Shown: piece after piece, positions 1-22,085 of the stretch
Layout of the letters: the number at the start of each line of letters is the position of its first letter
How positions within the stretch are numbered: position 1 is the first letter of the stretch
Source: a virus
Virus record (IMG/VR): IMGVR_UViG_3300047546_000396
Span: 1 to 22,501 of that record
Reading direction: 5' to 3' (one strand)
DNA: 22,501 nt
Position numbers and translations under genes: made by a program
Notes under the pieces: generated by a model
Database searches by the model: none
The model's input: only the letters and a program-made list of their open reading frames with translations
What the model was told of the DNA's origin: nothing

Positions 1-372
1 GTATTGGTTGAATATAGAAAGCAAGATGATGAAGTTAGAATGTTATCTTACAAATTATTAGTAGAAAATTTTAATAAAAAATATTCTAATTTATCAGTAA
101 ATCAGAAAAACTTATTAAAAGAATATATCAATAATATCAATAATACTGGCAAATTGAGTGAATATGTTTCAAACGAAGTAACAACATTAGTTAATTCATT
201 GAAAGAAGTTGGCTCTAAAATTTCAGATAAAGTTACAAAAATTAAATTAGCAGAAACCATTTCTAATATTAAGAAAATCAAAACGGCTAAAAAAATTAAA
301 GAAGAGCATTTATCAGCAATGATGATGACTTATGAACTTTTAAAAGAATTGAAAAATGCCAGCACAAAGTAA
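1..372 (+). CDS. Hypothetical phage protein, 5' truncated
   Basis: The frame is open from the first base, so the gene probably begins upstream; the TTG at position 4 is only the first possible start inside the window. About 120 lysine- and asparagine-rich residues remain, mostly predicted helical (for example a segment with LSYKLLVENFNKKYSNLS near the start and KKIKTAKKIKEEHLS near the end). No catalytic motif or membrane segment is visible. The gene overlaps the next one by 17 bp, which indicates translational coupling within one operon. Its place upstream of the prohead protease is where T4-like phages carry small prohead-core proteins (gp67/gp68), but I see no sequence match to these, so a core role is only positional inference. 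Confidence 0.6.
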   Translation, partial: VLVEYRKQDDEVRMLSYKLLVENFNKKYSNLSVNQKNLLKEYINNINNTGKLSEYVSNEVTTLVNSLKEVGSKISDKVTKIKLAETISNIKKIKTAKKIKEEHLSAMMMTYELLKELKNASTK

Positions 373-1123
373 AGCACAACAAAGATTTATGGGTATGGTT
401 CACGCTGCACAAAAGGGTGATTTAGAAAACCCATCAAAAGAAGTTGAAAAAGCAGCAGATTCAATGAGTGATAAAGATGCAAAAGATTTCGCATCGACTT
501 CTCATAAAGGATTACCGGACCATGTTAAAGAGCAAGTGTTAGCAGAGCTTCGTTCAGTTCGTACTATATCAAAAGATTTGGCAAAAGTAATCGATGGAAT
601 TCAACAATATTTAGATTTATATAAAAAAGCAAAAGGAACTCCAAATGAAAAGAAGTATGTAGAACAATTAAAAAAATTGGGTACTGCTAAAAAGCAATTG
701 GAAAAAGAATTAGATGATTCGGTTTCTGGCTTATATAAAGATGCTGAATTGAAAGTAGATGAAATGAATACATCGGGAGCAGCAGGTGAGTACAATACTC
801 CATTTGCGTTTGGAAAGCCCGAAGATGAAAAAACTAAAGGTAAAAGACAAGCCGATTTGACGGGATATAGTGTTGTGAAAGAAAATCGTTGGTTAGAATT
901 AAAAAAAGAAGATTCATCGGCAGTTTCAAAAATTGGAAAAGGTATCTCTAATATCAGCAAACAACTTTCAGAAATGGAAAGATTTCTTAATTGGTATGGT
1001 AAAATTAAGAATGAAAGTGGAATAAACAACAAAAGTTTTTGGAAAAGAACAAATAACCATATTTATACAATAAAAGAGAGATTGTTAAAATTGGACCAAA
1101 AAATAAGACAAATTTCAGAATAA
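356..1123 (+). CDS. DUF3008-domain phage protein
   Basis: Residues 1 to about 58 match what I recall of the small DUF3008 family: an MPAQSKAQQRFMGMVHA start, then an ASTSHKGLP motif near residues 47-54. DUF3008 proteins are usually about 60 residues long and stand alone; here the domain heads a 255-residue protein. The rest is lysine- and glutamate-rich and likely helical or coiled coil (residues about 60-130 and 185-250). It is interrupted near residues 138-165 by a YNTPFAFGKP segment followed by KRQADLTGY, a pattern I associate with structural proteins of marine T4-like phages. Function is unknown. The ATG lies inside the end of the previous gene, and the stop overlaps the next start as TAATG. 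A prohead-core or other virion role is plausible from position but unproven. Confidence 0.75.
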   Translation: MPAQSKAQQRFMGMVHAAQKGDLENPSKEVEKAADSMSDKDAKDFASTSHKGLPDHVKEQVLAELRSVRTISKDLAKVIDGIQQYLDLYKKAKGTPNEKKYVEQLKKLGTAKKQLEKELDDSVSGLYKDAELKVDEMNTSGAAGEYNTPFAFGKPEDEKTKGKRQADLTGYSVVKENRWLELKKEDSSAVSKIGKGISNISKQLSEMERFLNWYGKIKNESGINNKSFWKRTNNHIYTIKERLLKLDQKIRQISE

Positions 1124-1644
1124 TGAAAGTATCCAAAAATTTAAAAGAGTTTGTAAAGCAAACTGTTAGGGAAGAACAAGATTATCAGCAATTATTTAAA
1201 CATATGTTGGATAAAAGTGGTAAATCTATAACTTCTATGTCAGATGATGATAAGAAAAAATTCTTTAATGCGGTAGATACTGCTTACAAAGCAAAATCCG
1301 AAGGTAAATTAAGAGGATACAATGAAGCTGAATTAACAGCAGGGCAAAAGAAATTAGATGTAGATAAGGATGGAGAGATTGAGGGTTCTGATTTAAAAGC
1401 ATTAAGAGCTACAAACGAAGTAGGAACAAACGATTGGCATTTCAAAGCAATTATGGCTATGTATGATATGGCCGGTGATTATGGTAGAAAAAAAATTGGA
1501 GTAGCTGTATGTGCAGACCCAAATGCCAGTAGAAGAGAAATTGAAAGAGGAATTAAAGAAACCGATTATAACGAAATAAGTGATATATCGGATAAATTGA
1601 GATTAAAAGAGGTATTCAATAGAATATCTCAAAAAAAAAAATAA
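1123..1644 (+). CDS. EF-hand-like structural protein (possible 5' part of a frameshifted gene)
   Basis: The protein has 173 residues. Residues 79-90 (DVDKDGEIEGSD) form a calcium-binding loop of the EF-hand or dockerin type: acidic residues at loop positions 1, 3 and 5, glycine at 6, isoleucine at 8 and aspartate at 12. The N-terminal part (residues about 18-52, with FKHMLDKSGKSI and DDDKKKFFNAVD) resembles short motifs seen in other T4-like phage structural proteins. The start overlaps the previous stop by one base. The last codons run into eleven A residues (1631-1641), after which the frame stops at once. One base back, the reading frame stays open to 2054 and encodes a membrane segment, so the true product may be about 310 residues (see the next two entries). 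No enzymatic function is evident. Confidence 0.7.
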   Translation: MKVSKNLKEFVKQTVREEQDYQQLFKHMLDKSGKSITSMSDDDKKKFFNAVDTAYKAKSEGKLRGYNEAELTAGQKKLDVDKDGEIEGSDLKALRATNEVGTNDWHFKAIMAMYDMAGDYGRKKIGVAVCADPNASRREIERGIKETDYNEISDISDKLRLKEVFNRISQKKK

Positions 1645-1724
1645 ATGAGGATTTAGCATTTGATATAGTAGCAACTGTTGGTACTATTTTAATTGCTAAA
1701 GTTATTTTTTATTACTTAATAGAA
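1623..1724 (+). other. Candidate -1 frameshift site and start-less membrane-encoding extension
   Basis: In the frame of the downstream gene this stretch is open from 1623 but has no ATG, GTG or TTG before 1725. It encodes INEDLAFDIVATVGTILIAK followed by VIFYYLIELAG, a clear hydrophobic membrane-spanning pattern that would be lost if translation began at 1725. An A11 run at 1631-1641 lies where the upstream gene ends. A -1 slip on it joins RISQKKK directly to INEDLAF. A purine-rich AAAAGAGG at 1605-1612 lies about 18 nt upstream, where a frameshift-stimulating element could sit. Transcriptional slippage or a homopolymer sequencing error would give the same pattern. Confidence 0.5.
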
Positions 1725-2054
1725 TTGGCTGGAAACGGAATAAACTATTTAATGGGTAATAAAAAAGAAACAAAGAAAGTTTTAGAAAAAATATTGGGTT
1801 CATTGGAATCTAATAAAAAATTTATAGATGATGTTGTTAAATTATTAGATAACAAAAAAGGTATCGATGATTCAATAGCATCTAAAATGGTTAAATTACC
1901 ATATGTACAAACTCAAATAACCAAAGGTTCTGATAGTACAAATGGTGAGGTAACTGAAACGGAATTAGAAAATGAATTAAAAACCATTTTCTTAAAAACT
2001 TGGTCACAGCATAGTGGTAAAGTGATAGAAAAAGTAAAAAAAGATTTGAAATAG
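1725..2054 (+). CDS. Hypothetical membrane-linked protein (3' part, start uncertain)
   Basis: The first standard start in this frame is TTG at 1725, giving 109 residues, but the coding pattern continues upstream without a break. The upstream part encodes a transmembrane helix whose last residues (LIELAGNG) cross the TTG, so 1725 is unlikely to be the real start. I regard this as the C-terminal part of the EF-hand-like protein at 1123, expressed by a -1 shift at the A11 run, or as a gene interrupted by a sequencing error. After the membrane segment the protein is lysine-rich and helical (GNKKETKKVLEKILGSLESN), with no recognised domain. The stop is followed immediately by the protease ATG at 2055. 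Function is unknown; a membrane- or head-associated role would be a guess. Confidence 0.55.
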   Translation: MAGNGINYLMGNKKETKKVLEKILGSLESNKKFIDDVVKLLDNKKGIDDSIASKMVKLPYVQTQITKGSDSTNGEVTETELENELKTIFLKTWSQHSGKVIEKVKKDLK

Positions 2055-2645
2055 ATGAATAAGGGATTATTAATAGAAACTCATTTGTTTGAAGCAAAAC
2101 TTCAGCAAGAAGAAAACGGAACTTATTTAGTTAAGGGTATTCTTCAAAGAGCTGGTGCTCCAAATCAAAACCACAGAAGATATCCAAAAGAAATTTTGGA
2201 AAGAGAGTGTAAGAAGTATGAGCAACTTATTAAAGAAAGAAGAGCATTGGGTGAATTAGACCATCCAGATTCTCCCGTAATCAACTTAAAAAACGTATCA
2301 CATAACATCAGAGAAATTGGATGGGATGGGGATGACGTAGTTGGTGTAGTGGAAATTCTTTCAACTCCATCTGGTAACATCTTAAAAGAATTATTAAAAA
2401 ACAACATTCGTTTAGGGATTTCATCGAGAGGATTGGGTTCAGTAAAAGAACTTTCCGATGGTACTGTAATGGTTCAGGAAGATTTTGAATTAGTTGGATG
2501 GGATTTTGTTTCCAATCCATCTACACATGGAGCATTTATGGCACCAATGAACGAATCAAAACAATGGGCTAAAGTTGCAGAAGAATGTGGAAAATTCTGC
2601 AAAGCACAAGACTTGATGAGAGAAATTATAATTGAATTAAACTAA
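2055..2645 (+). CDS. gp21: Prohead maturation protease, T4 gp21 type
   Basis: This 196-residue protein matches the T4 gp21 prohead protease family (serine-protease fold shared with herpesvirus assemblin). That protease sits inside the prohead and cuts scaffold and capsid proteins after (L/I)-x-E. Visible landmarks: a GILQRAG segment near residue 28, HRRYP at 40-44, GELDHP with the likely catalytic His70, LGISSRGLGS with the likely catalytic Ser123 or Ser124, and VGWDFVSNPS with Asp150. The last is a conserved block and possible third active-site residue. Length is close to T4 gp21 (about 210). The ATG abuts the previous stop. Being just upstream of the scaffold and capsid genes is the usual T4 arrangement, though here four small genes and a terminator intervene. 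Family assignment is firm; exact catalytic residues are inferred by pattern. Confidence 0.93.
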   Translation: MNKGLLIETHLFEAKLQQEENGTYLVKGILQRAGAPNQNHRRYPKEILERECKKYEQLIKERRALGELDHPDSPVINLKNVSHNIREIGWDGDDVVGVVEILSTPSGNILKELLKNNIRLGISSRGLGSVKELSDGTVMVQEDFELVGWDFVSNPSTHGAFMAPMNESKQWAKVAEECGKFCKAQDLMREIIIELN

Positions 2646-2652
2646 TAAAAAT

Positions 2653-2916
2653 ATGAAATTAGTAAACTTAATGCCAGTAAACACTTATGAGCCAGTAGCT
2701 AAAATCAACGAAGATTTGGAGGATATGGATGTAACAATTCCTGCAAAAGTTGAAAAATTTTTGGATAGAGCATTGGAAGTAATTAAGGGATATAATTTAC
2801 CAAAAAGAAAAGAACAATTGGTAATGGCTAAATTAGTAGATGCATTGGGTATGACTCCGCAAGATTTACAACAAGCGGTTCAAAGATTGAAAAAATATAA
2901 AATCGCTCATAAATAA
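2653..2916 (+). CDS. Small hypothetical protein
   Basis: This 87-residue protein is not a family I recognise. It has a short N-terminal stretch (MKLVNLMPVNTYEPVAKINE), an acidic patch (EDLEDMD), then a compact helical part with TIPAKVEKFLDRALEVIKGY and a lysine-rich end. The last 40 residues (KLVDALGMTPQDLQQAVQRL) look like a small helical bundle. There is no signal peptide or membrane segment. It starts 7 bp after the protease stop, and the preceding bases are A-rich with no Shine-Dalgarno. Its constant neighbours are virion-assembly genes, so a head-assembly role is possible but not shown by sequence. Confidence 0.65.
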   Translation: MKLVNLMPVNTYEPVAKINEDLEDMDVTIPAKVEKFLDRALEVIKGYNLPKRKEQLVMAKLVDALGMTPQDLQQAVQRLKKYKIAHK

Positions 2917-2922
2917 TATAAT

Positions 2923-3360
2923 ATGATACGTTTAAAAGATTTACTTAAAGAAGAGGAAGCATATCAGCAATTACCTACTGATATTAAGAAACATTTTTTG
3001 GAAATAATTTCTACATTTGGTCAATTTAGAGAGCAAATGAATAGAAAATCCGATATCAGAAATATTGCCGAAACATTGGGTGGTATTGCAGATGCTGCAC
3101 AAGAATATACTTTAAGAGAAGGTGGTGATTGGTTTGATAGAGTAACTATTAAACGTAATATGAAAGAATTGAAAGCATTGCATGAAAAATTCCAAAAAGA
3201 ATCTTTAGAAGCTAAAGCACAAGAACAAAGATTAGAAGCTCTTTATGAAGATATGGGGCATGTATTAAATAGATACTTTGAAATAGCTGAAGTAACTGAA
3301 GATGTAATGAAACAAAGATTAGGATTACAAGAATGTAAAACTTGCGAAAAATTAAAATAA
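2923..3360 (+). CDS. Hypothetical helical protein
   Basis: The protein has 145 residues, is charged and apparently almost entirely helical. Residues about 65-120 (around KRNMKELKALHEKFQKESLE) have coiled-coil character. The C-terminus has a CKTC pair of cysteines (residues about 138-141), possibly a disulfide or metal-binding pair, although only one such pair is present. I do not recognise the family. It starts 6 bp after the previous gene and ends 5 bp before the ATG of the next, inside an unbroken gene run. Together with the small gene before it, it fills the space between protease and scaffold, a place for core or scaffold helpers; this is inference only. Confidence 0.65.
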   Translation: MIRLKDLLKEEEAYQQLPTDIKKHFLEIISTFGQFREQMNRKSDIRNIAETLGGIADAAQEYTLREGGDWFDRVTIKRNMKELKALHEKFQKESLEAKAQEQRLEALYEDMGHVLNRYFEIAEVTEDVMKQRLGLQECKTCEKLK

Positions 3361-3365
3361 TTAAA

Positions 3366-3737
3366 ATGGAACAATTAGCATCATTATTTTTACATAGTAG
3401 AACTCAAGCGCACGCTTTTCATTTAGGAGTTAAAGGAATTGGAGCGCATTCAGCACATGAAGCATTAGGTGAATACTATGATTCAATTGGTGGTATCATA
3501 GATGGTTTAGTAGAATCTTATCAGGGTAAATATGGTTTGATTAAATTACAACCTGTAAGTGGATTGGATACAAATAACGATATTAAAAACATAATTTCTT
3601 ATTTTGAAAAATTATGTGTAGCATTAGATAAGTTAAGAAAAGATGAAAAATTACAAGCATCTTATTTACAAAATCAAATTGATAATATTGAAGAATTATT
3701 ATATTCTACAAAATATAAATTAGTAAACCACCAATAA
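3366..3737 (+). CDS. DUF5856-like protein, possibly with a Dps/ferritin-like helical fold
   Basis: I choose the ATG at 3366, giving 123 residues. A TTG at 3342 would add eight residues but would overlap the previous gene. The N-terminal block SRTQAHAFHLGVKGIGAHSA, then HEALGEYYDSIGGIIDGLVE and SYQGKYG, resembles the phage family I know as DUF5856, described as helical and reminiscent of Dps/ferritin proteins. Two histidine-containing helices and an acidic helix (EYYDSI, LVESY) are consistent with such a fold, but I cannot show metal ligands. It lies between a helical hypothetical gene and the bS21 gene in the same operon. Function is unknown; protection of DNA or metal binding would be speculation. 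Confidence 0.68.
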   Translation: MEQLASLFLHSRTQAHAFHLGVKGIGAHSAHEALGEYYDSIGGIIDGLVESYQGKYGLIKLQPVSGLDTNNDIKNIISYFEKLCVALDKLRKDEKLQASYLQNQIDNIEELLYSTKYKLVNHQ

Positions 3738-3743
3738 TACGTT

Positions 3744-3941
3744 ATGTTAATCATTGATGTAAAAGATGGAAATGTAGATAGAGCACTTAAAGTTTACAAA
3801 AGTAAAGTAAAAAGTGTTAAGCAAATCGAATCATTAAGAGATAGAAAAGAATTCGAAAAACCATCAGTTACCAAACGAAAACAAAAGCTAAAAGTAGCTA
3901 GAGTAGAGAAATTTAAGAAAATTTTTGATAAAAACAATTAA
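3744..3941 (+). CDS. rpsU: Phage-encoded small ribosomal subunit protein bS21
   Basis: The 65-residue product has the length and pattern of bS21: MLIIDVKDGNVDRALKVYKS at the start, a basic middle, the REFEKPSVTKRKQK core near residues 35-50, and a lysine-rich tail. The MLII-x-VKDG start resembles Bacteroidota bS21 more than proteobacterial or cyanobacterial forms. bS21 sits near the anti-Shine-Dalgarno end of 16S rRNA and affects initiation. In Flavobacteria it helps to hide the anti-Shine-Dalgarno. Phage bS21 genes are known from several large or uncultured phages. Here it is the last gene of the first operon, 6 bp after the DUF5856-like gene and just before a terminator. There is no Shine-Dalgarno upstream. 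A likely role is replacing host bS21 to tune translation during infection (inference). Confidence 0.85.
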   Translation: MLIIDVKDGNVDRALKVYKSKVKSVKQIESLRDRKEFEKPSVTKRKQKLKVARVEKFKKIFDKNN

Positions 3942-5396: not shown

Positions 5397-7010
5397 ATGA
5401 ATTTAAAATCAATTATGACAGGAAAAAACCCACAGTCATTAATGCTTGAGCAAACTAGAGGTTTGAAAGCAAAGTGGGAAAAAACAGGTTTGTTAGAAGG
5501 CGTTAAGTCTGAAACAAACAAGCATGGTATGGCAGTAATGTTAGAAAACCAAGCTAAGCAATTATTAGATGAGGCTACAAGAACAGGTACTTCAGCAGGT
5601 TCTGAAGAGTGGGCTGGTGTAGCTTTACCATTGGTAAGAAGAATCTTCGGTTCAATTGCAGCGAAAGAATTCGTTTCAGTTCAACCAATGAACTTACCTT
5701 CAGGTCTTATTTTCTATATGGATTTCAAGTATGGTACTGACACTGATACAGGTAGACCAGCTCAAAATTCATCAATGTTCGGTAACGGCGGTACTTTCGG
5801 TAAAGATTCTTTATCTCCAGCTGGTAACAAATTGGGTTCTACTCAAGCAGCTGAAGGTGGATTATACGGAGCAGGACGTTTCGGATACACAATCAACGAT
5901 TCAGCAGTAGCTAAAAACGCAACTGTTGCATCTGCATCTTTATCAGATATTAACTACAACTTGGTTGATTCAGCGTTCTCTGCAGCATTTGCAGCTGACA
6001 AAGTTAAGACTTTGACTGTAGCATTACCTGATGATGCTGATTTCAATGGTGCTAGAGCATTTGATTTAGCACAATCTGGTTCAGGTTTCACTTTATATCC
6101 TGAATTTACATCTGTTGAAGGTACAAACGTAACTTTCGTTGCGAAAGTAGCAGCAGCTAACACAATTTTTGGTACTGTAGGTGCTACTTTAGCATACCAC
6201 AAACAACCAACTGATATTTCTCGTGGTGATTTCGAAGATAGAGGTGCTGACTTACCTATCCCAGAAGTTGAATTAGAATTGAAATCTGAGCCTATCGTGG
6301 CTAAGACTCGTAAGTTGAAAGCAATTTGGACTCCTGAATTAGCGCAAGACTTAAACGCATACCACTCTGTAGATGCAGAAGCTGAATTAACTCAAATGTT
6401 ATCTGAATACATCTCTTTAGAGATTGATTTAGAAATTTTAGAGATGTTACAGCAAAACGCATTCTCTACTGAATACTGGTCTGCAAGAGTTGGATACGAT
6501 TGGACAGGTGCTGGTTTCGCAGCTGATTCAACTGCAGTAGCAGCAGGTGCTTACACAAAGAACACTTGGTATCAAACTTTAGGTATCAAATTACAAAAGA
6601 TATCTAACAAGATTCACCAATTAACTATGAGAGGTGGTGCAAACTTCATCGTTGTATCTCCAAACGTAGCAACTATTTTAGAATCAATGAATGGTTTCTC
6701 TGCAAATCCTGGTAAGGATGCAATGCAATTCGCAGCAGGTGTAACTAACATCGGTTCAATCTCTAATAGATACGATGTTTATAAGAATCCTTATATGACT
6801 GAAAACGTAATCTTATTAGGTTTCAAAGGTTCTAACTTCTTCGAAACAGGTGCTGTTTACGCTCCATATGTTCCGTTGATTATGACTCCTTTAGTTTATG
6901 ACCCAATCAACTTCACTCCAAGAAGAGGTGTGATGACTAGATACGCTAAGAAAATCGTAAGACCAGAGTTCTACGGTAAGATTATCGTTGATGGTTTAGA
7001 AACTCTTTAA
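5397..7010 (+). CDS. gp23: Major capsid protein, T4 gp23 type
   Basis: This 537-residue protein has the hallmark gp23 segments: GLLEGVKSETNKHGMAVMLE, then NQAKQLLDEATRTG, EEWAGVALPLVRRIFG and VQPMNLPSGLIFYMDF in the first 110 residues. The central LPIPEVELELKSEPIVAKTR comes near residue 286. The C-terminus has YDPINFTPRRGVMTRYAKK and RPEFYGKIIVDGLETL. It forms the hexamers of the HK97-fold head. A protease consensus LDE ends at residue 59 and is a likely site for removal of the N-terminal propeptide, near the position used in T4 (residue 65). Residues about 170-280 are the least conserved part and include an insertion-like, beta-rich region. It starts 31 bp after the scaffold stop with an A-rich upstream region and no Shine-Dalgarno. 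Asparagine is coded by AAC about three times as often as AAT, unlike most neighbours. Confidence 0.97.
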   Translation: MNLKSIMTGKNPQSLMLEQTRGLKAKWEKTGLLEGVKSETNKHGMAVMLENQAKQLLDEATRTGTSAGSEEWAGVALPLVRRIFGSIAAKEFVSVQPMNLPSGLIFYMDFKYGTDTDTGRPAQNSSMFGNGGTFGKDSLSPAGNKLGSTQAAEGGLYGAGRFGYTINDSAVAKNATVASASLSDINYNLVDSAFSAAFAADKVKTLTVALPDDADFNGARAFDLAQSGSGFTLYPEFTSVEGTNVTFVAKVAAANTIFGTVGATLAYHKQPTDISRGDFEDRGADLPIPEVELELKSEPIVAKTRKLKAIWTPELAQDLNAYHSVDAEAELTQMLSEYISLEIDLEILEMLQQNAFSTEYWSARVGYDWTGAGFAADSTAVAAGAYTKNTWYQTLGIKLQKISNKIHQLTMRGGANFIVVSPNVATILESMNGFSANPGKDAMQFAAGVTNIGSISNRYDVYKNPYMTENVILLGFKGSNFFETGAVYAPYVPLIMTPLVYDPINFTPRRGVMTRYAKKIVRPEFYGKIIVDGLETL

Positions 7011-10763: not shown

Positions 10764-13703
10764 ATGGCAATAAGACATTATAAAAAAATATCAGAATTAG
10801 ATGCAATCACATCCGCATCATTAAATACATATGTAGCCGGTGTTGATAATGGGCAAACTGTAAGAATAACTTTGGATGTTCTTGCGGATGGTGTTAGAAA
10901 TACTATTAACACATTGGATATTCAACGTCTAAACGCATTAGAAGCTGCAACCGGTTCTTATTTAACATCTTTGAATGGGGCTATTAGTGGTAGCTCTCAA
11001 TTAACTTCTTCTTATGACGAAAGATATGTAATTAGTGGTTCATTAACCCAAACTACTTGGGATAATATAAGTGGTAAACCAAATGGATTGATTTCGCAAT
11101 CTACGGATTTATCGCATTTAAATTCATTTACATCTTCTCAAAATACATTAAATACGGCATTTACAAATGCTATTAGTGCAAGATTACAAACTACAACATA
11201 TAATACGGATTCTGCATCATTTGATGCAAGAATTATTGCAGCAACGAATGAGCAATCATTTAATGGATTAATAAGTGGTTCGGAGCAATTAACTTCTTCT
11301 TATGATGAAAGATATACTTTGAGTGGTAGTGTTGTTGTTTCACCAAACACAATAAGTTCTTCTACTCAAATTACCGATTTGGGATTTGTTAGTGGAAGTT
11401 ATGAAACGACTGGTAGAGGAATTTTAAGTGGTAGCATTTCCTACGATGATTTAACAAATATACCAACGGGTATAGTTTCAGAATCAACAGATTTAACTCA
11501 ATTAAATTCATTTACTTCATCGCAATCAGCTTTAAATGTTGCATTTACAAACGGAATGAACGGAAGATTGCAAACATCCTCATTTAATGAATTTTCAGCA
11601 TCGATTCATACCGAAATAGTTGCAGCAACTAACGAACAAAGTTTATCATATTTAGTAACAACTTCATCATTTAATTCATTTACACAATCATATAATACCG
11701 ATAGTTCATCTTTTGACACTAGAATTAATGCCGTATCATCTGGTTCCGTTTCTCTAATAAATGATATTATATATAATGGTGAAACATTTACAATTCAAAA
11801 AGGAACACCTTTATATGTAAGTGGTTCACAAGGAGCTAATCCAAAAGTTTATGTTGCGGATGCCTCCGACTCAAACAAAATGCCAGTTACTTATATAGCT
11901 GGTGCAAACATAAATTCAAATAATACGGGAGTTGGAATTTTATTAGGAGATATTAGCGGAATTAATTTAACCGGATACCAACCTGGCCAACAAGTATATG
12001 TAGCAGAAGGTGGTGGTTGGAGTATAAATCCACCATCGGGTTCAAATTCAATAAAACAATTTTTAGGTGTTATTGTAAAAGAAGGAAATGGTGGTAAAGG
12101 TTTGGTATTAAATCCAGGTCCTGCAACTCTACCTAATTTACAAACGGGATATTTGTGGGTAGGTAATACAAATAACCAAGCGACTACAATTGCTTCTTCA
12201 TCATTTGAAAAAACTGGTAGAAGTATTGTTAGTGGTTCATCACAATTAACTGCATCATATGATAGCAGATATGCATTGAGCGGTAGTGTTTTAACTTCAT
12301 TCTCACAATCGGTTGATAGTAGATTAGATAATATAGAAGCATTCAGTTCATCATTGAGTGTATTAGCAAATAGTGCAACAAAAATATTAGATAATGCTTC
12401 TTATACATCTGCAACTGCGTGGAGTGGTTCATATACCGGAAATGGTGGGACTGTAAAAGTAGAAGCTAATTTCACATTATATTCATCAACAAACAATTCA
12501 ACTAAAACATTATATCTTTATAGAGATGGTATTATTGTAGATAGTGGTAGTTTTTACTTCAATGCTGCAAATCAACATCTTGTAATGCCAACATTGTATT
12601 ATGTGGGTTCAACTGAAATCGGAATGCATACATATAGTGTAGGACACAATGCCAGTTCTGATATAAGTGATTATTGTACAATAGTAGTAACTGAAACATT
12701 CAATTCTTTAAACATAGAAGGTAATGTAAATTATGTGCAAGTATTAGGTGCATCAAAAACATTGAGTACAACTAATACTAATATAATAAGTGGAAGCATA
12801 ACAACATCTGGAAATCCTGTTCAAATTATGATTACAGGTGATGCAAACCCAGTATCATCAACAGGTCAATGGTGTCAAATACAAATATATAGAGATAGTA
12901 GTGCAATTGGTCAAATTATTCAAGTTGAATCATCGGCACAAAACGAAAACATACCATATTGTTTAAATGTTATAGATACACCGGCTGCCGGAACTTATAC
13001 CTATTCAATGAGAATGGTAACCAATAGTGGTGGTAATTTTCAATACGGAGAAGCAGCGGGTCCAGTTTTAACAGCGGTAGAATTAAAAACAAATACAAAT
13101 CTTCCTTCTTTAAACAATACATTTACAGGAACAAATACATTCAATGGGGTAACTAGATTTGGTACAGTTGGAGGTGATGAAGGTGGTGAGATAGAATTCG
13201 GTGTTCCACAAACAAATACAACATTATCAACTCGTGTAGTTGCCGATGTTTATAGAGATAGATTAAGAATTTTTGATGGTAATACCAAAGGCGTTTACAT
13301 AGATTTAAGTAAAGCACCAACGGGAGTAGGTGGTGAATTGGCGTGGAAAGCAAGTGGGTTTGTAAATGCAGGAGTATCAATTACATTGGATGATATACAA
13401 GCTAGATTTACAACAAGTGGTGGTAGAAGTTTAGAAGTAAGAACAACGGGAGCCAATTTTACAGCAATGGCTTCGGCACATACAACATATAATAATGGTT
13501 CTTACACATATTATTCCGATAAATCATTTACGATGAGTACGACATTTGGATATCCAGGTGGCCAATCTTGGGGATTCACTGGTGATGGTGATTTGGCAGT
13601 ATATTATATAAGAGATACAACCAATTTAAGATTTTGGAGAATGACATTGATGGTGGGACCGGGATATAATAATAACTTTATTACGATAGAAAGATTACAT
13701 TAA
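10764..13703 (+). CDS. Large tail-fibre protein with SGSSQ repeats
   Basis: The protein has 979 residues. The N-terminus (RHYKKISELDAITSASLNTY, then a segment ending TVRITLDVLADGV) resembles N-terminal attachment domains of marine phage fibres. Residues about 60-330 carry repeated short motifs: ISGSSQLTSSYDERY-like blocks (first near residue 72, with variants), and LNSFTSSQ paired with RLQT. Residues about 332-455 form a distinct beta domain (GETFTIQKGTPLYVSGSQGA). After another SGSSQLTASYDSRYALSGS block, residues about 530-780 look like beta-sandwich modules. The C-terminal domain (from about residue 800) ends RFWRMTLMVGPGYNNNFITI plus ERLH, a plausible receptor-binding tip. It is 1 bp after the previous gene and at the end of the neck operon. 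Host recognition is inferred. Confidence 0.8.
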   Translation: MAIRHYKKISELDAITSASLNTYVAGVDNGQTVRITLDVLADGVRNTINTLDIQRLNALEAATGSYLTSLNGAISGSSQLTSSYDERYVISGSLTQTTWDNISGKPNGLISQSTDLSHLNSFTSSQNTLNTAFTNAISARLQTTTYNTDSASFDARIIAATNEQSFNGLISGSEQLTSSYDERYTLSGSVVVSPNTISSSTQITDLGFVSGSYETTGRGILSGSISYDDLTNIPTGIVSESTDLTQLNSFTSSQSALNVAFTNGMNGRLQTSSFNEFSASIHTEIVAATNEQSLSYLVTTSSFNSFTQSYNTDSSSFDTRINAVSSGSVSLINDIIYNGETFTIQKGTPLYVSGSQGANPKVYVADASDSNKMPVTYIAGANINSNNTGVGILLGDISGINLTGYQPGQQVYVAEGGGWSINPPSGSNSIKQFLGVIVKEGNGGKGLVLNPGPATLPNLQTGYLWVGNTNNQATTIASSSFEKTGRSIVSGSSQLTASYDSRYALSGSVLTSFSQSVDSRLDNIEAFSSSLSVLANSATKILDNASYTSATAWSGSYTGNGGTVKVEANFTLYSSTNNSTKTLYLYRDGIIVDSGSFYFNAANQHLVMPTLYYVGSTEIGMHTYSVGHNASSDISDYCTIVVTETFNSLNIEGNVNYVQVLGASKTLSTTNTNIISGSITTSGNPVQIMITGDANPVSSTGQWCQIQIYRDSSAIGQIIQVESSAQNENIPYCLNVIDTPAAGTYTYSMRMVTNSGGNFQYGEAAGPVLTAVELKTNTNLPSLNNTFTGTNTFNGVTRFGTVGGDEGGEIEFGVPQTNTTLSTRVVADVYRDRLRIFDGNTKGVYIDLSKAPTGVGGELAWKASGFVNAGVSITLDDIQARFTTSGGRSLEVRTTGANFTAMASAHTTYNNGSYTYYSDKSFTMSTTFGYPGGQSWGFTGDGDLAVYYIRDTTNLRFWRMTLMVGPGYNNNFITIERLH

Positions 13704-13705
13704 TA

Positions 13706-13714
13706 ATATTTATA
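13706..13714 (+). promoter_or_regulatory. ATATTTATA motif filling the gap before the 209-residue fibre gene
   Basis: The gap between the two fibre genes is only 15 bp, and nine of these are the motif. It ends 4 bp before the ATG. If it is a promoter core placed as in T4 late promoters (about -13 to -6), transcription would start at or next to the ATG, giving a leaderless message. Confidence 0.4.
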
Positions 13715-13718
13715 GATA

Positions 13719-14348
13719 ATGGCAAATTTGATTAGATTAAAACAAATAGAAAGTGGTTCGGAATTAAATACAGCCGCAAATGTAGGTGCTGATTTTAGTT
13801 CATCTGTAAATGATATTGTATCTCAATCGATACAAACTACATTTTCCGCATCTATTGTTCAAATTATTACAAATAATGTTGCGGCTGTTTTGCCAGATGG
13901 AGTTGTATCATCTTCGGCTCAAATAGTACTGGCAGATACATCGGGTCAAATATCGGGCTCAAGAGTAATTGGAGATATTGCCGCAACTTCTGTAAATTAT
14001 GAAAATATTATAGGATTACCGACATTGGTTTCAGCTTCACAACAAATTTCATTTGATGGAGTTTCTAACAAACCTGCATTGGTATCCGGCTCACAACAAA
14101 TTTCATTCGATGGGGTTGTGGGTAAACCTACTTTAGTATCCAGCTCAATCCAAATTTCGTTTGATGGTATTTCCGATAAACCATCGATTGTATCTGGCTC
14201 TGAACAAATAGCAGACATATTGATTCCATTGAACCAACATTCGGAATCATTGAATATGTTTACTGCATCTCTTGATTTAACATATGCAACCGATAACGAA
14301 GTATATGTTTCTCAATCGAATATTAATATTGATATGGGAGAATTTTAA
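13719..14348 (+). CDS. Short fibre-type protein with 18-residue repeats
   Basis: The protein has 209 residues. The N-terminus (MANLIRLKQIESGSELNTAA) is basic then polar, unlike the RRG-type start of the later fibres but related in style to the 979-residue fibre. Residues about 60-75 have GVVSSSAQI. Residues 103-164 are three and a half copies of an 18-residue repeat of the form LVSGSQQISFDGVxxKPx. The end, NINIDMGEF, resembles the IDGGSF and IDAGSF ends of two other fibres here. It is a likely accessory or connector fibre subunit; no enzymatic motif. Preceded by its own ATATTTATA motif. Confidence 0.72.
   Translation: MANLIRLKQIESGSELNTAANVGADFSSSVNDIVSQSIQTTFSASIVQIITNNVAAVLPDGVVSSSAQIVLADTSGQISGSRVIGDIAATSVNYENIIGLPTLVSASQQISFDGVSNKPALVSGSQQISFDGVVGKPTLVSSSIQISFDGISDKPSIVSGSEQIADILIPLNQHSESLNMFTASLDLTYATDNEVYVSQSNINIDMGEF
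14025..14210 (+). repeat. 54-bp tandem repeat, about 3.4 copies
   Basis: Units start at 14025, 14079 and 14133, with a partial unit at 14187, all in frame. Each encodes an 18-residue block containing QISFDG. Copies differ mostly at third positions, which indicates selection on the protein rather than recent duplication. Confidence 0.8.
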
Positions 14349-14386
14349 TTTTTCTTAATGAAAGTTATGATTCTTATCATTTTTTA

Positions 14387-14394
14387 ATATTTAT
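14387..14394 (+). promoter_or_regulatory. ATATTTAT motif in the 169-bp gap before the 840-residue fibre
   Basis: The gap 14349-14517 is otherwise A+T-rich and non-coding. It contains a weak ATGAT/ATCAT hairpin followed by six T (about 14367-14386), the motif, and a 10-bp direct repeat CTTAATGAAA at 14354-14363 and 14459-14468. The motif is about 123 bp before the ATG, leaving a long leader if it is the promoter. Confidence 0.35.
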
Positions 14395-14517
14395 CAGTAT
14401 CAAACATTTAGTTGAAGGTTAGTATTGGTTTCTATCAATTATACTTTACTGAATTTCACTTAATGAAAATCAAAAATTATTTTTATTTAACGAAAACAAT
14501 TAATTAATTCAATTAAT

Positions 14518-17040
14518 ATGGCACAAATTATTAAACACAGACGTGGTAGTTTGGAAGCCCTATCGGCGGTAACATCATCCTTACAAAAAGGTGAAATTGT
14601 AATCGCTTCAGGTTCTTCCAATCTTACAACAACGAATGGCTCGTCAATAGTATTTGCTGCAAACGAAAATGGTCAGGTACAAGCGGTAAACCGCTTCTTG
14701 ATGGGTGATAATGCACCTAATACGTTTGCTGGCTCTACTTATAATGGCATGGTTAAAGGTGTTCCTTACTACGCAAGTGGTAGTTCAACCTTATATTTAT
14801 TAGGAACAGATGGTAACGAAGCTATTAATTTAGTAGGTAACATTCAACCATTCTCCGCTTCAGTTGCATCTTCAATCAACGCATTGAGTTCATCTATTGG
14901 TAGTGGAACTATTGGTAACTCTGTAAGCTTATTAAATTCTTATACTGCATCCAATGATACTACTAATGATGCACAAGATGCTAGATTATCTTCTTTAGAA
15001 GCATTCTCTGGTTCACAATTGGGTAAAGATGCTACATTAGCAACTTATACTGCAAGTGTTGATGCACATATTTCGGCAATCAATACTTTCTCTGCATCAC
15101 AAATATCTAAAGATTCAACTTTAGCAACATACACTGCTTCAATTGATGCACATGTATCCGCTGTAAACGCATTCTCTGCATCTCAATTAGGTAAAGATTC
15201 AACTTTAGCTACTTACACCGCTTCGGTTGATGCACACATCGCAGCAATCAATACTTTCTCTGCATCGCAAGAAGGAAAGGATTCAGCATTAGCAACTTAT
15301 ACAGGTTCAGTAAATAGTAAGTTCTCTACATTAGGTACTTACACTGCTTCAGTTGATGCAGATTTAACTGAATTATATGCAACTGCTTCTAACCACGAAG
15401 GTAGAATCGATACATTGGAAACATTCCAATCAGACATCGAAACTGCAATCACTGTTAGTGGTTCTAACGTAACTGTTAATGGTAACTTCACTGTATCTGG
15501 TACTCAAACTATCGTTGATTCAACAACTATTCAAATTGGTGATAACATCATCGAATTGAACGGAAGTGGAGCAGCAAATGGTGGATTATGGGTTAAAGAT
15601 GCTACCGCTCCTAACACAGCAACAGGTTCAATCGTTTGGGATTCAACAAATGACTACTGGAAAGCTGGTGTTAAAGGTGCAGAATCTAAAGTATTAGTAG
15701 CAGGTGGAGATAACGTAGTTTCAGGTTCATCTCAAATTACAATTTCTTCTACAACAGGATATACTGCATTTAGTTCTTCATTAGCAGCTAAAGATGCAGA
15801 ATTATTTGCATCAGCATCTGACCACGAAAGTAGAATCGATACAATCGAAGCTTCTGTTGGTGGAGCAGCTGGTATTGGAAGTAGAGTTTCTGCATTAGAA
15901 GCATACTCTTCTTCAAACGATACTGCACAAGCGGCACAAGATAATAGATTATCAGCATTAGAAAGTGAGACTGGTTCAATCGCTTCTGCACAATCAGCAC
16001 AAGATGCTAGATTATCGGCATTAGAAACTGAAACAGGTTCAATCGCTTCTGCACAATCAGCACAAGATGGTAGATTGAGTTCAATCGAAGGATTTACTTC
16101 TTCAATTAACACTACAATCAAATCTAAATTAGATGCGGATGGTGTAATTAGTGGTTCATCTCAAGTAACTTTATCATCTGTAACAGGATTTACTTCTTAT
16201 TCTACTTCAGTTGATAGTAGATTAGATAGTGTTGAAGCAGCAATTGGTAATGGTTCAAACATTGATACAAGATTATCATCTTTAGAATCATTCTCTGGTT
16301 CACAAGAATCTAAAAATTCAACTTTAGCATCTTATACTTCATCTGTTGATTCTAAATTCTCAACTTTAGCATCTTACACAGGTTCAGTAAATGATAAATT
16401 TGCAGCAGTTCAATCATCAACTTCATCGTTGAACGCATTTACTGCATCACAAGAATCTAAAAACTCAGCTTTAGCAACTTACACAGGTTCTGTAAATGAT
16501 AAATTTGCAGCAGTTCAAGCTTCTACATCATCATTAAATTCATTCACTGCTTCGGCTGATAGTAGATTAACTACATTAGAAGGAACAGGAAATATACAAG
16601 GTGTTGGTACATCTGACGAAGTAACATTCGCTAAAGTAACAACTTCTGGTGATGTAATCGTAGGTGGTGACTTGATAGTACAAGGTAACACTACTACATT
16701 GAACACTGCTCAATTAGTTGTTGAAGATAAACTTATCACATTAGCATCAGGTTCTACTTCAAACGCAACAGCGGATGGTGCTGGATTCGAAGTAGCTGGT
16801 ACATCTGCATCATTTAAGTATGATGGTACTAACAACCAATTCAGTTCTTCAGTTGATATCGTAGCAGACGTAACAGGTTCATTAAATGTACCAGGTTTCG
16901 GAACTTCGAAGAGAGCAGCATTCAGAAACGCAGCAGGTAACATTGATTTCGTAGCAGCACCAACAACTGCAGGAGATTTGTTACAATGGGATGGTTCTGA
17001 TTTTGTAATGAGTAACACAATTGACGGAGGTTCATTCTAA
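14518..17040 (+). CDS. Large repetitive fibre protein, probably highly expressed
   Basis: The protein has 840 residues. Its N-terminus (MAQIIKHRRGSLEAL, then KGEIVIASGS) is the RRG...GE pattern of Mtd-type fibre N-terminal domains. Residues about 115-300 are 28-residue repeats (LATYTASVDAHISAINTFSA), followed by a TASNHEGRIDTLE block. Residues about 322-400 are a beta module with NFTVSGTQTIVDSTTIQIGD. A second repetitive coiled-coil-like part follows (ETGSIASAQSAQDARL repeats, TGSVNDKFAAVQ repeats). A second module (DLIVQGNTTTLNTAQLVVED) leads to a C-terminus ending NTIDGGSF. Codon use is shifted to AAC, TAC and TTC like the capsid gene, which suggests an abundant product, perhaps the main long fibre or a whisker. 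It has a 169-bp private upstream region. Confidence 0.8.
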   Translation: MAQIIKHRRGSLEALSAVTSSLQKGEIVIASGSSNLTTTNGSSIVFAANENGQVQAVNRFLMGDNAPNTFAGSTYNGMVKGVPYYASGSSTLYLLGTDGNEAINLVGNIQPFSASVASSINALSSSIGSGTIGNSVSLLNSYTASNDTTNDAQDARLSSLEAFSGSQLGKDATLATYTASVDAHISAINTFSASQISKDSTLATYTASIDAHVSAVNAFSASQLGKDSTLATYTASVDAHIAAINTFSASQEGKDSALATYTGSVNSKFSTLGTYTASVDADLTELYATASNHEGRIDTLETFQSDIETAITVSGSNVTVNGNFTVSGTQTIVDSTTIQIGDNIIELNGSGAANGGLWVKDATAPNTATGSIVWDSTNDYWKAGVKGAESKVLVAGGDNVVSGSSQITISSTTGYTAFSSSLAAKDAELFASASDHESRIDTIEASVGGAAGIGSRVSALEAYSSSNDTAQAAQDNRLSALESETGSIASAQSAQDARLSALETETGSIASAQSAQDGRLSSIEGFTSSINTTIKSKLDADGVISGSSQVTLSSVTGFTSYSTSVDSRLDSVEAAIGNGSNIDTRLSSLESFSGSQESKNSTLASYTSSVDSKFSTLASYTGSVNDKFAAVQSSTSSLNAFTASQESKNSALATYTGSVNDKFAAVQASTSSLNSFTASADSRLTTLEGTGNIQGVGTSDEVTFAKVTTSGDVIVGGDLIVQGNTTTLNTAQLVVEDKLITLASGSTSNATADGAGFEVAGTSASFKYDGTNNQFSSSVDIVADVTGSLNVPGFGTSKRAAFRNAAGNIDFVAAPTTAGDLLQWDGSDFVMSNTIDGGSF
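15034..15285 (+). repeat. 84-bp tandem repeat, three copies
   Basis: Units at 15034, 15118 and 15202 each encode 28 residues of the type TLATYTASVDAHISAINTFS plus ASQxxKDS. They are partly preceded and followed by degenerate copies. Four-heptad length fits a trimeric coiled-coil or triple-stranded shaft. Confidence 0.85.
15949..16074 (+). repeat. 63-bp tandem repeat, two near-identical copies
   Basis: Units at 15949 and 16012 encode LSALE-S/T-ETGSIASAQ plus SAQDAR or SAQDGR. A run around GGTTCAATCGCTTCTGCACA is identical in both, so this pair may be a recent duplication and a recombination point. Confidence 0.8.
16369..16555 (+). repeat. About 100-bp repeat around TGSVNDKFAAVQ, two copies
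   Basis: Two in-frame copies encode TYTGSVNDKFAAVQ followed by STSSLNxFTAS and a QESKNS linker. The same block recurs in diverged form in the 1098-residue fibre (about 19450-19510), showing module sharing between genes. Limits are approximate. Confidence 0.65.
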
Positions 17041-17104
17041 CGTATGAGATTTACCAAAAGGTAATTTTAAAAATTATTAATGAACATCAAAAACAATAAA
17101 ATCA

Positions 17105-17722
17105 ATGGCTCAAAATTTATTACATAGAAGGTCGCTAATAGCAGGAAAAGTTCCTGATACTGGCTCATTGCTTGTAGGAGAGCTTGGTATAAACGTTTAT
17201 GATGGTAAGGTATATCTACATAAGTCGGGTTCCTCTGAATCGATTGAAACATTAGTATCAACTAATTCCATCACCACCGGTTCAATAACATTGACCGGAA
17301 CGGGTTCATTTGGTGAATTAAACATCACAAATGATATCAACGTTGGAGGTGATGCGTATATATCGGGAGATATAGTTGGTAATGGTGATTTAGATATACA
17401 AGGAGCAGTATCCGCATCAATTGTTTCAGCATCGTTTTTAGTAGGTGATGGTAGATATATTTCTGGCGTTACCGCATCAATGAGACCGGATGATTTTGAT
17501 TTTAATTCAGAACCATTCGCAGGAACAATTGGATACATCCAAGCATCGGGCTCTTTATACAAAGTAGCAACTACTCAAGACGCAGTAGAATTTAGATATA
17601 ATGATACCGCTTTCGCAACGTTTACAACGGGAAGCACTCAATTATATGGAATAGGTGATATTATGGCATTTAGTGCTTCAGTAGCAGCACAATTTGCAAT
17701 GATAGACGCCGGTTCATTCTAA
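17105..17722 (+). CDS. Short fibre-type protein (paralogue of the 17850 gene)
   Basis: The protein has 205 residues. The N-terminus MAQNLLHRRSLIAGKVPDTG, then LLVGELGINVYDGKVYLHKS, is the Mtd-type N-terminal domain and is clearly paralogous to the start of the gene at 17850. A beta-helix-like run follows (FGELNITNDINVGGDAYISG) with repeated G-D-I steps, then SASFLVGDGRYISGVTAS. It ends AMIDAGSF, like the NTIDGGSF end of the fibre before it. The 64-bp gap upstream (17041-17104) has no ATATTTAT motif and only a weak TTACC/GGTAA hairpin, so it is probably co-transcribed with the 840-residue fibre. A strong terminator follows. Confidence 0.75.
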   Translation: MAQNLLHRRSLIAGKVPDTGSLLVGELGINVYDGKVYLHKSGSSESIETLVSTNSITTGSITLTGTGSFGELNITNDINVGGDAYISGDIVGNGDLDIQGAVSASIVSASFLVGDGRYISGVTASMRPDDFDFNSEPFAGTIGYIQASGSLYKVATTQDAVEFRYNDTAFATFTTGSTQLYGIGDIMAFSASVAAQFAMIDAGSF

Positions 17723-17743
17723 TCGTTAAAAAGTAAAAAAACT

Positions 17744-17769
17744 AAACCCCACTTCGGTGGGGTTTTTTT
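17744..17769 (+). terminator. Strong rho-independent terminator with UUCG loop
   Basis: AAACCCCAC (17744-17752) and GTGGGGTTT (17757-17765) form a perfect 9-bp stem closed by a TTCG tetraloop with C-G closing pair, followed by seven T (17763-17769). It ends the unit containing the 840- and 205-residue fibres. Confidence 0.93.
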
Positions 17770-17782
17770 ATTTAAAAAATAT

Positions 17783-17790
17783 ATATTTAT
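17783..17790 (+). promoter_or_regulatory. ATATTTAT motif after the UUCG terminator
   Basis: It lies 13 bp after the terminator T run and 59 bp before the next ATG, the same terminator-then-motif arrangement as after the capsid gene. A 14-bp palindrome begins 4 bp downstream. Confidence 0.42.
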
Positions 17791-17794
17791 TAGG

Positions 17795-17808
17795 GTAGTA
17801 TATACTAC
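17795..17808. repeat. Perfect 14-bp palindrome
   Basis: GTAGTATATACTAC reads identically on both strands. It lies immediately downstream of the ATATTTAT motif and could be a protein-binding site or a short hairpin near the 5' end of the fibre transcript. No T run follows directly, so it is not a terminator. Confidence 0.5.
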
Positions 17809-17849
17809 TTTTCTTTTTGTTATAACGATTTAAATAGAATAGACTAGAT

Positions 17850-18689
17850 ATGTCTCAAACAATTGTACTGAAGCGTTCGGCGCAGCCAGGTAAGGTGCCG
17901 GATACAAGCTCTATTAATTTAGGAGAAATTGCCGTAAACACTTATGACGGTAAAATATTTTTTAAACGCTCAGGTTCAATTGAGTCTGTTCAATCAATCG
18001 TAACAACCGATTCCACTACAACTGGTTCTATTTATCTAACCCAAACGGGTTCATTTGGTGAAATAGCAGCAGCACAAGATGCAAACATACAAAGAGATGT
18101 TTTCGTTGGTAGAGATATCATTACAATAGGCGATATAGATGCCGGTGGTGATATTAGTGGTAGTGGTTTACAAATAAATGATACACTCAATATAATTCAT
18201 AATCACTTTGCTTTATCGGCAAGTGCGGAAATAACGGGTTCACTTTCGGTGGATGGTAACGTAACCATTTTAGGAGAAGTTAATGCCAGACAATTTAATA
18301 TATCGGTAATTTCTTCATCTATATTTTACGAAAGTGGAAGTTCTAAAATTGGTAACACATTAGATGATATACATCAATTTACAGGTTCGGTAGATATAAC
18401 GGGTTCATTAGTAGTAAATGGAAATGAAGTTGGAATTGCACCCGGACCAAATACATTTGATTTTAATTTAGACCCGGAAGCAGCAGGGACTGTAAACTTC
18501 ATAGAAGATTCAACGGGCAATACTCAAGCCATAGCAACCACATCTTCATTTGATGTAAAAGTTGGTGGAAATACATATCTATCTATTGGTGAAAACGTTA
18601 TGAACGTAGTAACGGGTAGTATAACGGCAAATTATATGCATTTAGCAAAATATATCTCTAATAGTGGAGATTTAGATTTTAATATTTAA
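17850..18689 (+). CDS. Fibre-type protein (paralogue of the 17105 gene)
   Basis: The protein has 279 residues. The N-terminus MSQTIVLKRSAQPGKVPDTS, then INLGEIAVNTYDGKIFFKRS and TGSFGEIA, aligns residue for residue with the 205-residue fibre, indicating gene duplication. The middle has GDI/GGDISGSG steps and SASAEITGSLSVDGNVTILG, a beta-strand repeat pattern. A block with TFDFNLDPEAAGTVNFIEDS mirrors DFDFNSEPFAGTIGYIQASG of the paralogue. It ends SNSGDLDFNI, unlike the DxGSF ends of others. Its own terminator-separated upstream region suggests independent expression. Function as a fibre or fibre adaptor is inferred from family style. Confidence 0.75.
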   Translation: MSQTIVLKRSAQPGKVPDTSSINLGEIAVNTYDGKIFFKRSGSIESVQSIVTTDSTTTGSIYLTQTGSFGEIAAAQDANIQRDVFVGRDIITIGDIDAGGDISGSGLQINDTLNIIHNHFALSASAEITGSLSVDGNVTILGEVNARQFNISVISSSIFYESGSSKIGNTLDDIHQFTGSVDITGSLVVNGNEVGIAPGPNTFDFNLDPEAAGTVNFIEDSTGNTQAIATTSSFDVKVGGNTYLSIGENVMNVVTGSITANYMHLAKYISNSGDLDFNI

Positions 18690-18691
18690 TC

Positions 18692-18700
18692 ATATTTATA
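18692..18700 (+). promoter_or_regulatory. ATATTTATA motif in the 30-bp gap before the S74 fibre
   Basis: It starts 2 bp after the previous stop and ends 19 bp before the ATG. It is identical over nine bases to the copies at 7089, 13706 and 22017 and is followed by AGAA, as at 22017. Confidence 0.45.
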
Positions 18701-18719
18701 AGAAACATAAAAGTATTAG

Positions 18720-22016: not shown

Positions 22017-22025
22017 ATATTTATA
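22017..22025 (+). promoter_or_regulatory. ATATTTATA motif directly after the S74 fibre stop
   Basis: It begins at the base following the stop codon and ends 60 bp before the next ATG. No terminator hairpin is seen in the 69-bp gap (22017-22085), so the next gene could be expressed by read-through as well. Confidence 0.42.
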
Positions 22026-22085
22026 AGAAGTTACATAATAACATAAAAATATTAAAATAATCGTACTAAAAAAAAGGTAAACTAA

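Follow-up and report, generated by a model that had tools for sequence, protein, structure and literature searches.

Known slippage systems and the junction in the window

The closest known kinds of signal are the -1 signals of dnaX and the IS3 family, and phage morphogenesis frameshifts such as lambda G/GT. The dnaX/IS3-family signals consist of A_AAA_AAG and a stem-loop. Like the junction described here, they have the heptamer before the 0-frame stop and a 3' hairpin about 8-10 nt further on. They have 6 A's, whereas here there are A9-A12, and the hairpin here is very AT-rich, with a first pair in its main helix other than G-C. No Shine-Dalgarno-like stimulator is established here. The dnaX frameshift shortens its protein. 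Unlike dnaX, the shift here would lengthen the protein by a membrane helix. Known frameshift heptamers are A_AAA_AAG, A_AAA_AAA and A_AAA_AAC, and known stimulatory hairpins start 4-10 nt downstream (PMC4066793, PMC3711429). Of the signal rules used in PMC4066793, the spacing of 4-10 nt is found here, but the opening G-C pair of the main helix is not.

Transcriptional slippage in dnaX (Thermus thermophilus and a two-ORF cluster) resembles our case in having an A9-A10 tract and, in the cluster, two frames (PMC3711429, PMC5009743). That is another gene, and here a 3' hairpin is selected that polymerase slippage does not need. Lambda G/GT and the capsid of Lactobacillus phage A2 are, like our case, frameshifts in a morphogenesis gene that give two C-terminal variants. 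Here, in contrast, the gene adjoins the gp21 protease gene and the predicted extension is a membrane segment. Our gene resembles those of T4 core and internal proteins that are processed by gp21 in its position beside gp21, and possibly in a short N-terminal peptide with an [LI]xE match.

Among 50,697 annotated phage records we found no relative of the upstream protein at E<=1e-5 and none of the downstream part at E<=1. Two PHROG families without a known function match weakly, phrog_34309 in the downstream part (window 1626-2051, 8.7e-4) and phrog_28651 in the upstream protein (window 1123-1641, 0.005), and hint at distant relatives in sequenced phages. Cellular genome contigs gave 592 pattern hits and 0 relatives. 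The stretches of Mel-JY01 and immuto_3-5A have gp21 and lack this gene pair, judging from translations read by eye. Among the papers listed, mostly from outside the subscription journals, no title or start of an abstract describes such a frameshift.

The window is the whole stretch of DNA that was analysed, 22,501 nucleotides long. Its letters read C1630, then A11 at 1631-1641, then TAAATGAG. The junction has the following features.

1123..1644, + strand: 0-frame gene, predicted soluble product of 173 aa; helical at the N-terminus (MKVSKNLKEFVKQTVREE), a single loop of DxDxDG type (DVDKDGEIEGSDL), ending QKKK-stop
1631..1641, + strand: A11 slippery run, with the 0-frame heptamer A_AAA_AAA at 1635-1641 and the stop right behind
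1642..1644, + strand: 0-frame stop TAA directly 3' of A11 (sequence and relatives)
1641..2054, + strand: -1 frame extension of 137 codons and a stop, a predicted membrane helix followed by a helical domain (codon-position test, AF2, hydropathy)
1665..1721, + strand: codons of the predicted membrane helix IVATVGTILIAKVIFYYLI (19 residues, Kyte-Doolittle mean 2.15)

An earlier note on this DNA had the gene at 1123 ending Q-K-K-K-stop inside eleven A residues (1631-1641) and the -1 frame open from 1623 to 2054 with no usable start before TTG 1725. The window letters and the reading of its ORFs confirm both. The frame of ATG 1123 ends CAA AAA AAA AAA TAA, with its stop at 1642-1644. The -1 frame opens behind TAG 1620-1622 and stops at 2052-2054. 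Its earliest ATG, GTG or TTG is TTG 1725, which lies 3' of the membrane-helix codons. Gene calling from ATG, GTG or TTG starts the downstream part there, past the helix, so annotation and proteomic searches would miss the junction. By arithmetic the predicted fusion has 173 + 137 = 310 aa. The window is AT-rich, and shuffling predicts 12.2 runs of at least 8 A where 10 overlapping matches are found. The evidence is thus the conservation of the A run and not the run alone.

We argue that the junction is probably a conserved programmed -1 frameshift, made by the ribosome, in a head-region gene of uncultured T4-like phages. Ribosomes would come upon A_AAA_AA(G/A/C) within A9-A12, placed right at the 0-frame stop or a codon earlier, and be obstructed by a long hairpin whose main helix begins about 8-10 nt past the heptamer. 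Termination would be the usual outcome and would yield the soluble protein of 173 aa. In the remaining cases the ribosome would move back by one base and read 137 codons more, so that the product of 310 aa shares its N-terminus with the soluble form and carries a membrane helix and a helical domain in addition. The earlier note had already proposed two such products, a soluble form and a fusion of about 310 residues, by slippage on the A run. With the junction conserved across contigs this is the best-supported reading of the sequences.

The junction and its frames among relatives

Viral contigs were searched with the upstream protein and the best 80 of 388 matches were kept (scan 1). Two of these (L008, L062) have no stop inside the locus, which leaves 78 loci for counting. 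Among these loci, from the best 80 of 388 matches, 49 of 78 have an A run of at least 7 at the stop of the upstream ORF. A10 or A11 at the stop together with a -1 membrane ORF occurs in 47 of 78 (47 of the 49 with A7 or more), counted before any A9 filter. The extension has 135-141 codons in the complete loci of this slip type, and 3 of the 47 are cut by contig ends. The remaining two with a run, L058 and L065, have A7 at the stop, no membrane ORF and the gp21 gene directly behind. The other 29 of 78 scan-1 loci have no A run there. Seven of them (L009-L014, L046) have a membrane protein with its own start. Of the 22 others 19 were inspected, and in 19 of 19 the gp21 gene lies directly behind the upstream ORF. 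The membrane extension is missing in part of the relatives. A second scan used the downstream part as its query and gave at least 45 loci, some on contigs common to scan 1. Among these at least 45 loci are 40 of slip type, 4 with an own start and 1 irregular (L082).

Hits were collapsed by downstream sequence with a script that demands at least 9 A (89 hits including duplicates and the window). This gives 48 distinct junctions, every one in the same -1 relation. The run is A10 in 29, A11 in 17, A12 in 1 and A9 in 1, and run length and preceding codon co-vary, which keeps the -1 relation. The usual 0-frame end among them is (C/G/A)AA AAA AAA AA(G/A/C) TA(A/G). Six end AAA AAA AAA AGG TAA instead, and L120 ends GTA AAA AAA AAG AAT TAA. 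The heptamer A_AAA_AA(G/A/C) is present at the stop or one codon earlier in 48 of 48. At the stop it is AAAAAAG in 36, AAAAAAA in 4 and AAAAAAC in 1; it lies one codon earlier in the 6 AGG-type junctions and L120.

These junctions bear on the rival that the earlier note had ranked first, a homopolymer miscall of a true gene with 12 or 9 A and one plain frame. A11 is an error-prone place in principle. However, the variation from A9 to A12 is compensated by the 5' codon throughout the 48 distinct junctions, which come from many metagenome records, and a sequencing error would not be trailed by a selected hairpin. A separate record of 179,990 bases, possibly from the same sample as the window (L001), has a 100% identical upstream protein and the same A11 junction. 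We reject the miscall because the junction is conserved across many contigs, and its probability is close to negligible. The note had proposed looking in related phages for a conserved long A run, which is there (A9-A12 in 48 of 48 distinct junctions), and for a single-frame fusion of the two parts, which is in 0 of 78 scan-1 loci and 0 among the at least 45 loci of scan 2.

The same counts apply to phase variation, where slippage of DNA polymerase would toggle the fusion between individual phages. A long A tract is mutable, so one can imagine this. However, the in-frame (ON) fusion that it predicts is the version found in 0 of 78 and 0 among at least 45 loci, and the hairpin has no role in such a model. 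With no in-frame version among the loci examined we reject phase variation as very unlikely indeed.

The A run is treated differently from other A tracts in these phages. The fourth codon before the stop can be Q, E or K, yet its last two letters are AA in 48 of 48 distinct junctions. The base or bases after the run vary (G, T, C, GG). Within 502 unique ORFs of these loci (ATG start, 90 codons or more), runs of A9 or longer number 44 at the junction and 5 elsewhere. Three of those 5 are the A10 of own-start relatives, one is in an ORF of L032 and one is in the upstream gene of L095. Lysine is written AAA in 81% of cases in the ORFs of these loci, which leads one to expect all-AAA codons in 53% of KKK windows. 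Off the junction they are found in 4 of 134 (nominal p about 1e-37, with overlapping windows and related sequences). At the junction 23 of 58 KKK windows are all AAA and the remaining 35 have two AAA. From these counts of A9+ runs and KKK windows we argue that long A tracts are avoided elsewhere and kept at the junction.

The -1 frame itself looks like a protein. We took 34 representatives from the 48 distinct junctions, below 90% identity by ungapped comparison. Divergence in the -1 ORF is 0.30/0.18/0.45 at codon positions 1/2/3, and position 3 is the most divergent in 561 of 561 pairs, so the ORF has the pattern of a translated and selected protein. The earlier note had called its membrane helix convincing, and the hydropathy agrees: 34 of 34 representatives reach a Kyte-Doolittle mean of at least 1.98, and the window has 2.15. 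The AlphaFold2 model of the extension is all helical with a long first helix (mean pLDDT 82.4). The model of the upstream protein is poor (pTM 0.36). A PDB fold search with both models gave no match at E<=0.001.

The 3' hairpin, the ribosome and the polymerase

Fold prediction places a hairpin behind the heptamer.

1640..1713, + strand: 3' RNA hairpin, lower stem 1640-1645/1708-1713 (fold prediction)
1652-1658/1694-1700, 1660-1663/1689-1692, 1665-1670/1682-1687 and 1672-1674/1678-1680, + strand: main helix of the hairpin (fold prediction)

The hairpin runs through the helix-coding region, and its lower stem begins inside the slippery heptamer. The main helix begins 10 nt behind the heptamer in the window and about 8-10 nt behind it overall. 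Window positions 1644-1704 fold at -18 kcal/mol with a z of -4.30, against -2.34 and -2.63 for two window control stretches. Control stretches also have a z below zero under dinucleotide shuffles (-1.65, -1.69), for which reason we relied on a synonymous-codon null with the protein held fixed as the main fold test; its controls are nearer zero, though not zero. Against synonymous recodings the first 24 codons have a mean z of -3.51, and 25 of 34 sequences fall below -2. The control stretches have mean z of -1.12, +0.40 and -0.90, with 5, 1 and 9 of 34 below -2. L001, with the same junction as the window, has a z of -2.73. The 9 of 34 that are not below -2 are L003, L005, L006, L016, L019 and L031 of subfamily II, plus L039, L059 and L092.

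Alignment A2 holds 34 distinct sequences, with the structure taken from one of them (L017). In it 81.3% of structure cells are paired, against 38-56% when the partner is slid. Both sides have changed in 48 cells (double-change cells), where shuffling gives 29.1 (0/500), and covariation scores 0.191 against 0.148 shuffled (0/500) and at most 0.111 slid. Stricter counts are not clearly above the shuffles, either for pairs changed on both sides (10 against 7.8, 46/500) or for pair types (35 against 33.3, 125/500). The covariation shuffles ignore kinship among the sequences. In A4, a smaller set of 24 sequences, the paired share is 82.4%, double-change cells number 31 where shuffling gives 16.1 (0/500), and covariation is 0.182 against 0.137 shuffled (0/500); its stricter counts are not above the shuffles (pairs 8 against 7.5, 249/500; types 25 against 27.4, 481/500). 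Columns 19-66 are C-G in 16 sequences and U-A in 13. This switch is mostly synonymous, with Leu CTN going with Lys AAG and Leu TTN with Lys AAA. In A5, the window's own subgroup of 10 sequences with a register shifted by one, 85.7% are paired against 36-60% slid, and with too little variation no measure is clearly above shuffles (covariation 53/500). The 12 sequences of subfamily II have another hairpin shape, with a mean z of -3.07 over 32 codons and -1.52 over 24, and no double changes. RNAalifold alone finds only 11 pairs of the lower hairpin, at -1.61 kcal/mol. Synonymous variability is mildly lower over the hairpin (0.64 against 0.73). The conserved 3' hairpin appears to be a putative frameshift stimulator, with compensatory changes by some measures and not by all.

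The main alternative for the mode of slippage is programmed transcriptional slippage, sole or contributing. The polymerase would add or drop an A within A9-A12, and ribosomes would then read normally. An upstream nascent-RNA hairpin is one variant of this mechanism. The 48 nt upstream of the run have no notable structure (mean z -0.7, 7 of 34 below -2), so an upstream RNA structure as the stimulator of polymerase slippage is unsupported and was rejected. The run itself suits a polymerase. Every one of the 48 distinct junctions has at least 9 A, the base after the run varies, and because the Q, E or K codons end in AA the run is longer than a heptamer for ribosomal slippage requires. Polymerases are known to slip on A tracts above 7, and Thermus dnaX uses 9 A's (PMC3711429, PMC5009743). 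A10 is also kept in the own-start relatives despite their weak hairpin. However, the hairpin is transcribed after the run and cannot act on a polymerase there, it is stabler than the protein demands in 25 of 34 sequences, and it is weak in the 3 own-start relatives tested. We consider transcriptional slippage a serious possibility, though one somewhat short of even.

Ribosomal slippage is favoured because a 3' hairpin can hold a ribosome and cannot hold a polymerase that has yet to transcribe it. We infer from the hairpin and heptamer that the ribosome slips, either instead of the RNA polymerase or jointly with it. The earlier note had named both modes. Its A run stands as the slip site, but it missed the conserved hairpin, which favours ribosomal over purely transcriptional slippage. 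Some junctions argue the other way. The 6 AGG-type junctions and L120 need a slip one codon earlier. A bacterial ribosomal site needs A_AAA_AAG only, yet every run has at least 9 A. L059 has the slip site and no hairpin (z +0.95). L082, 1 among the at least 45 scan-2 loci, would need a +1 shift: its upstream gene has an internal deletion near 2490, after which the second part is in the +1 frame of the first, so it is a real variant or a chimera. Both L059 and L082 fit transcriptional slippage better. Ribosomal slippage is likely the main mode with polymerase slippage a contributor, perhaps dominant in cases like L059. As an observation apart, L059, L060 and L063 have a longer upstream protein (224 aa from the match start) with extra sequence, and their A11 slip site is still terminal.

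The own-start relatives raise another possibility, that of two separate genes, with the membrane protein started independently by re-initiation or from a non-standard start codon. An ATG and an N-terminus of its own (MIKLKSILIE) are found on the membrane protein of L009-L014 and L046, and L110, L114, L122 and L126 have an own-start version too. This version begins MIKLKSILIEVMKKKSVNEN, and an A10 behind an ATG is still present. Three distinct own-start loci read ATG-A10-GTGTAAATG, with a GT added relative to the slip type; through the added GT this ATG, with the N-terminus behind it, is read in one frame with the membrane protein. The hairpin is weak in 3 of 3 distinct own-start loci tested (z -1.42, -0.80, -1.14). 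From these three sequences, which are related to one another, we argue that the hairpin is found where a frameshift is needed. The window is different. Its -1 frame has no ATG, GTG or TTG before the helix, and the ATG right behind its 0-frame stop belongs to frame 0, where a stop follows three codons later. The junction codon also varies among relatives (ATA, CTA, GTA, GAA). The earlier note had held that homologues with a separate start would refute its reading. They do occur (L009-L014, L046), but as a distinct variant set apart by the added GT and the weak hairpin. We therefore reject an independent start for the slip type, where it is very unlikely, and accept it as real in the own-start variant.

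The head cluster and a proposed role

The surroundings of the junction are a T4-type head cluster, judging from these genes.

356..1123, + strand: DUF3008 gene in the same head-region cluster (PF11450, 1.4e-9)
2055..2645, + strand: gp21-type prohead protease, directly downstream (PF03420, 2.1e-29; PHROG 207, 6e-53)
3342-3737: DUF5856 family protein (PF19174, 4e-13); TTG start, overlapping the 3' end of the ORF before it
3744-3941, + strand: ribosomal protein bS21, on the same strand as the head cluster (PF01165, 2e-11)
5397-7010: major capsid protein (profile/family search)
18720-22016: fibre-like ORF ending in a Peptidase_S74 chaperone (3e-18)

L001 has more genes upstream, among them the ORF at 598-2325, a putative portal gene judging from its sequence and position. 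Bacteroidota phages that encode bS21 and have a head-gene cluster are described in PMC9723584; there bS21 is on the reverse strand, whereas in the window it is on the strand of the head cluster. The word 'frameshift' is absent from the main text of that paper. The likeness of bS21 and head cluster to those phages suggests a Bacteroidota host. Two side observations concern other parts of these genomes. Window positions 10764-22501 hold several large fibre-like ORFs with common T/A/S-rich repeats (SSLNAFTASQ...). Behind the gp21 gene L030 and L034 have a repeat-like ORF ISLVTRIFVSNNS...NLTHLEIDNNALTSLDVSGMTSL at the place of window 2653-2916, and L033 has a different ORF with a similar beginning.

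The earlier note called the upstream protein EF-hand-like. It does have one DxDxDG-type loop, but no Pfam model reaches its cut-off: Dockerin_1 scores 15.8 bits (cut-off 22.9), EF-hand_7 14.9 (30) and EF-hand_1 12.8 (25.4). The label is weak. [LI]xE is the rule for the site at which T4 gp21 cleaves a capsid-targeting peptide. It occurs within the first 14 residues of 33 of 33 distinct N-termini, though the motif is loose. The N-terminus that both products would share looks like a targeting peptide of the prohead core, and its gene adjoins the gp21 gene. As a separate observation, the own-start N-terminus MIKLKSILIE looks similar to [LI]xE targeting peptides. We know of no T4 internal protein that is made by a frameshift.

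In T4 the internal and core proteins have a capsid targeting sequence that is cleaved by gp21 (PMC3012670, PMC7411985) and proheads assemble on the inner membrane (PMC7411985), and in SPN3US release of the prohead from the membrane depends on the protease (PMC7411985). By analogy we propose that the fusion is a minor, membrane-anchored copy of a core protein that would tether assembling proheads to the inner membrane. One can imagine a more specific scenario where a small fixed anchored share, among many soluble copies of a core-targeted protein, docks the initiating prohead at the inner membrane until gp21 frees it by cleaving the shared N-terminus, with polymerase slippage and hairpin-driven ribosomal slippage setting the ratio on one site. 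We regard this ratio-controlled tether as doubtful. The fusion may instead be an ejected membrane protein or a lysis-related protein. Some relatives lack the membrane extension, so not all of these phages can depend on it as a tether.

If the frameshift is real, a conserved and structurally supported one would be added to the T4-like head-assembly region in an uncultured group. These phages form a natural series: junctions with slip site and hairpin, others where the hairpin beside the slip site is weak, own-start loci with a weak hairpin, and phages that lack the membrane part. Comparing them permits the signal to be dissected. The locus would be a candidate anchor, possibly made at a fixed ratio, and may give a handle on how T4-type proheads are attached to and released from the inner membrane.
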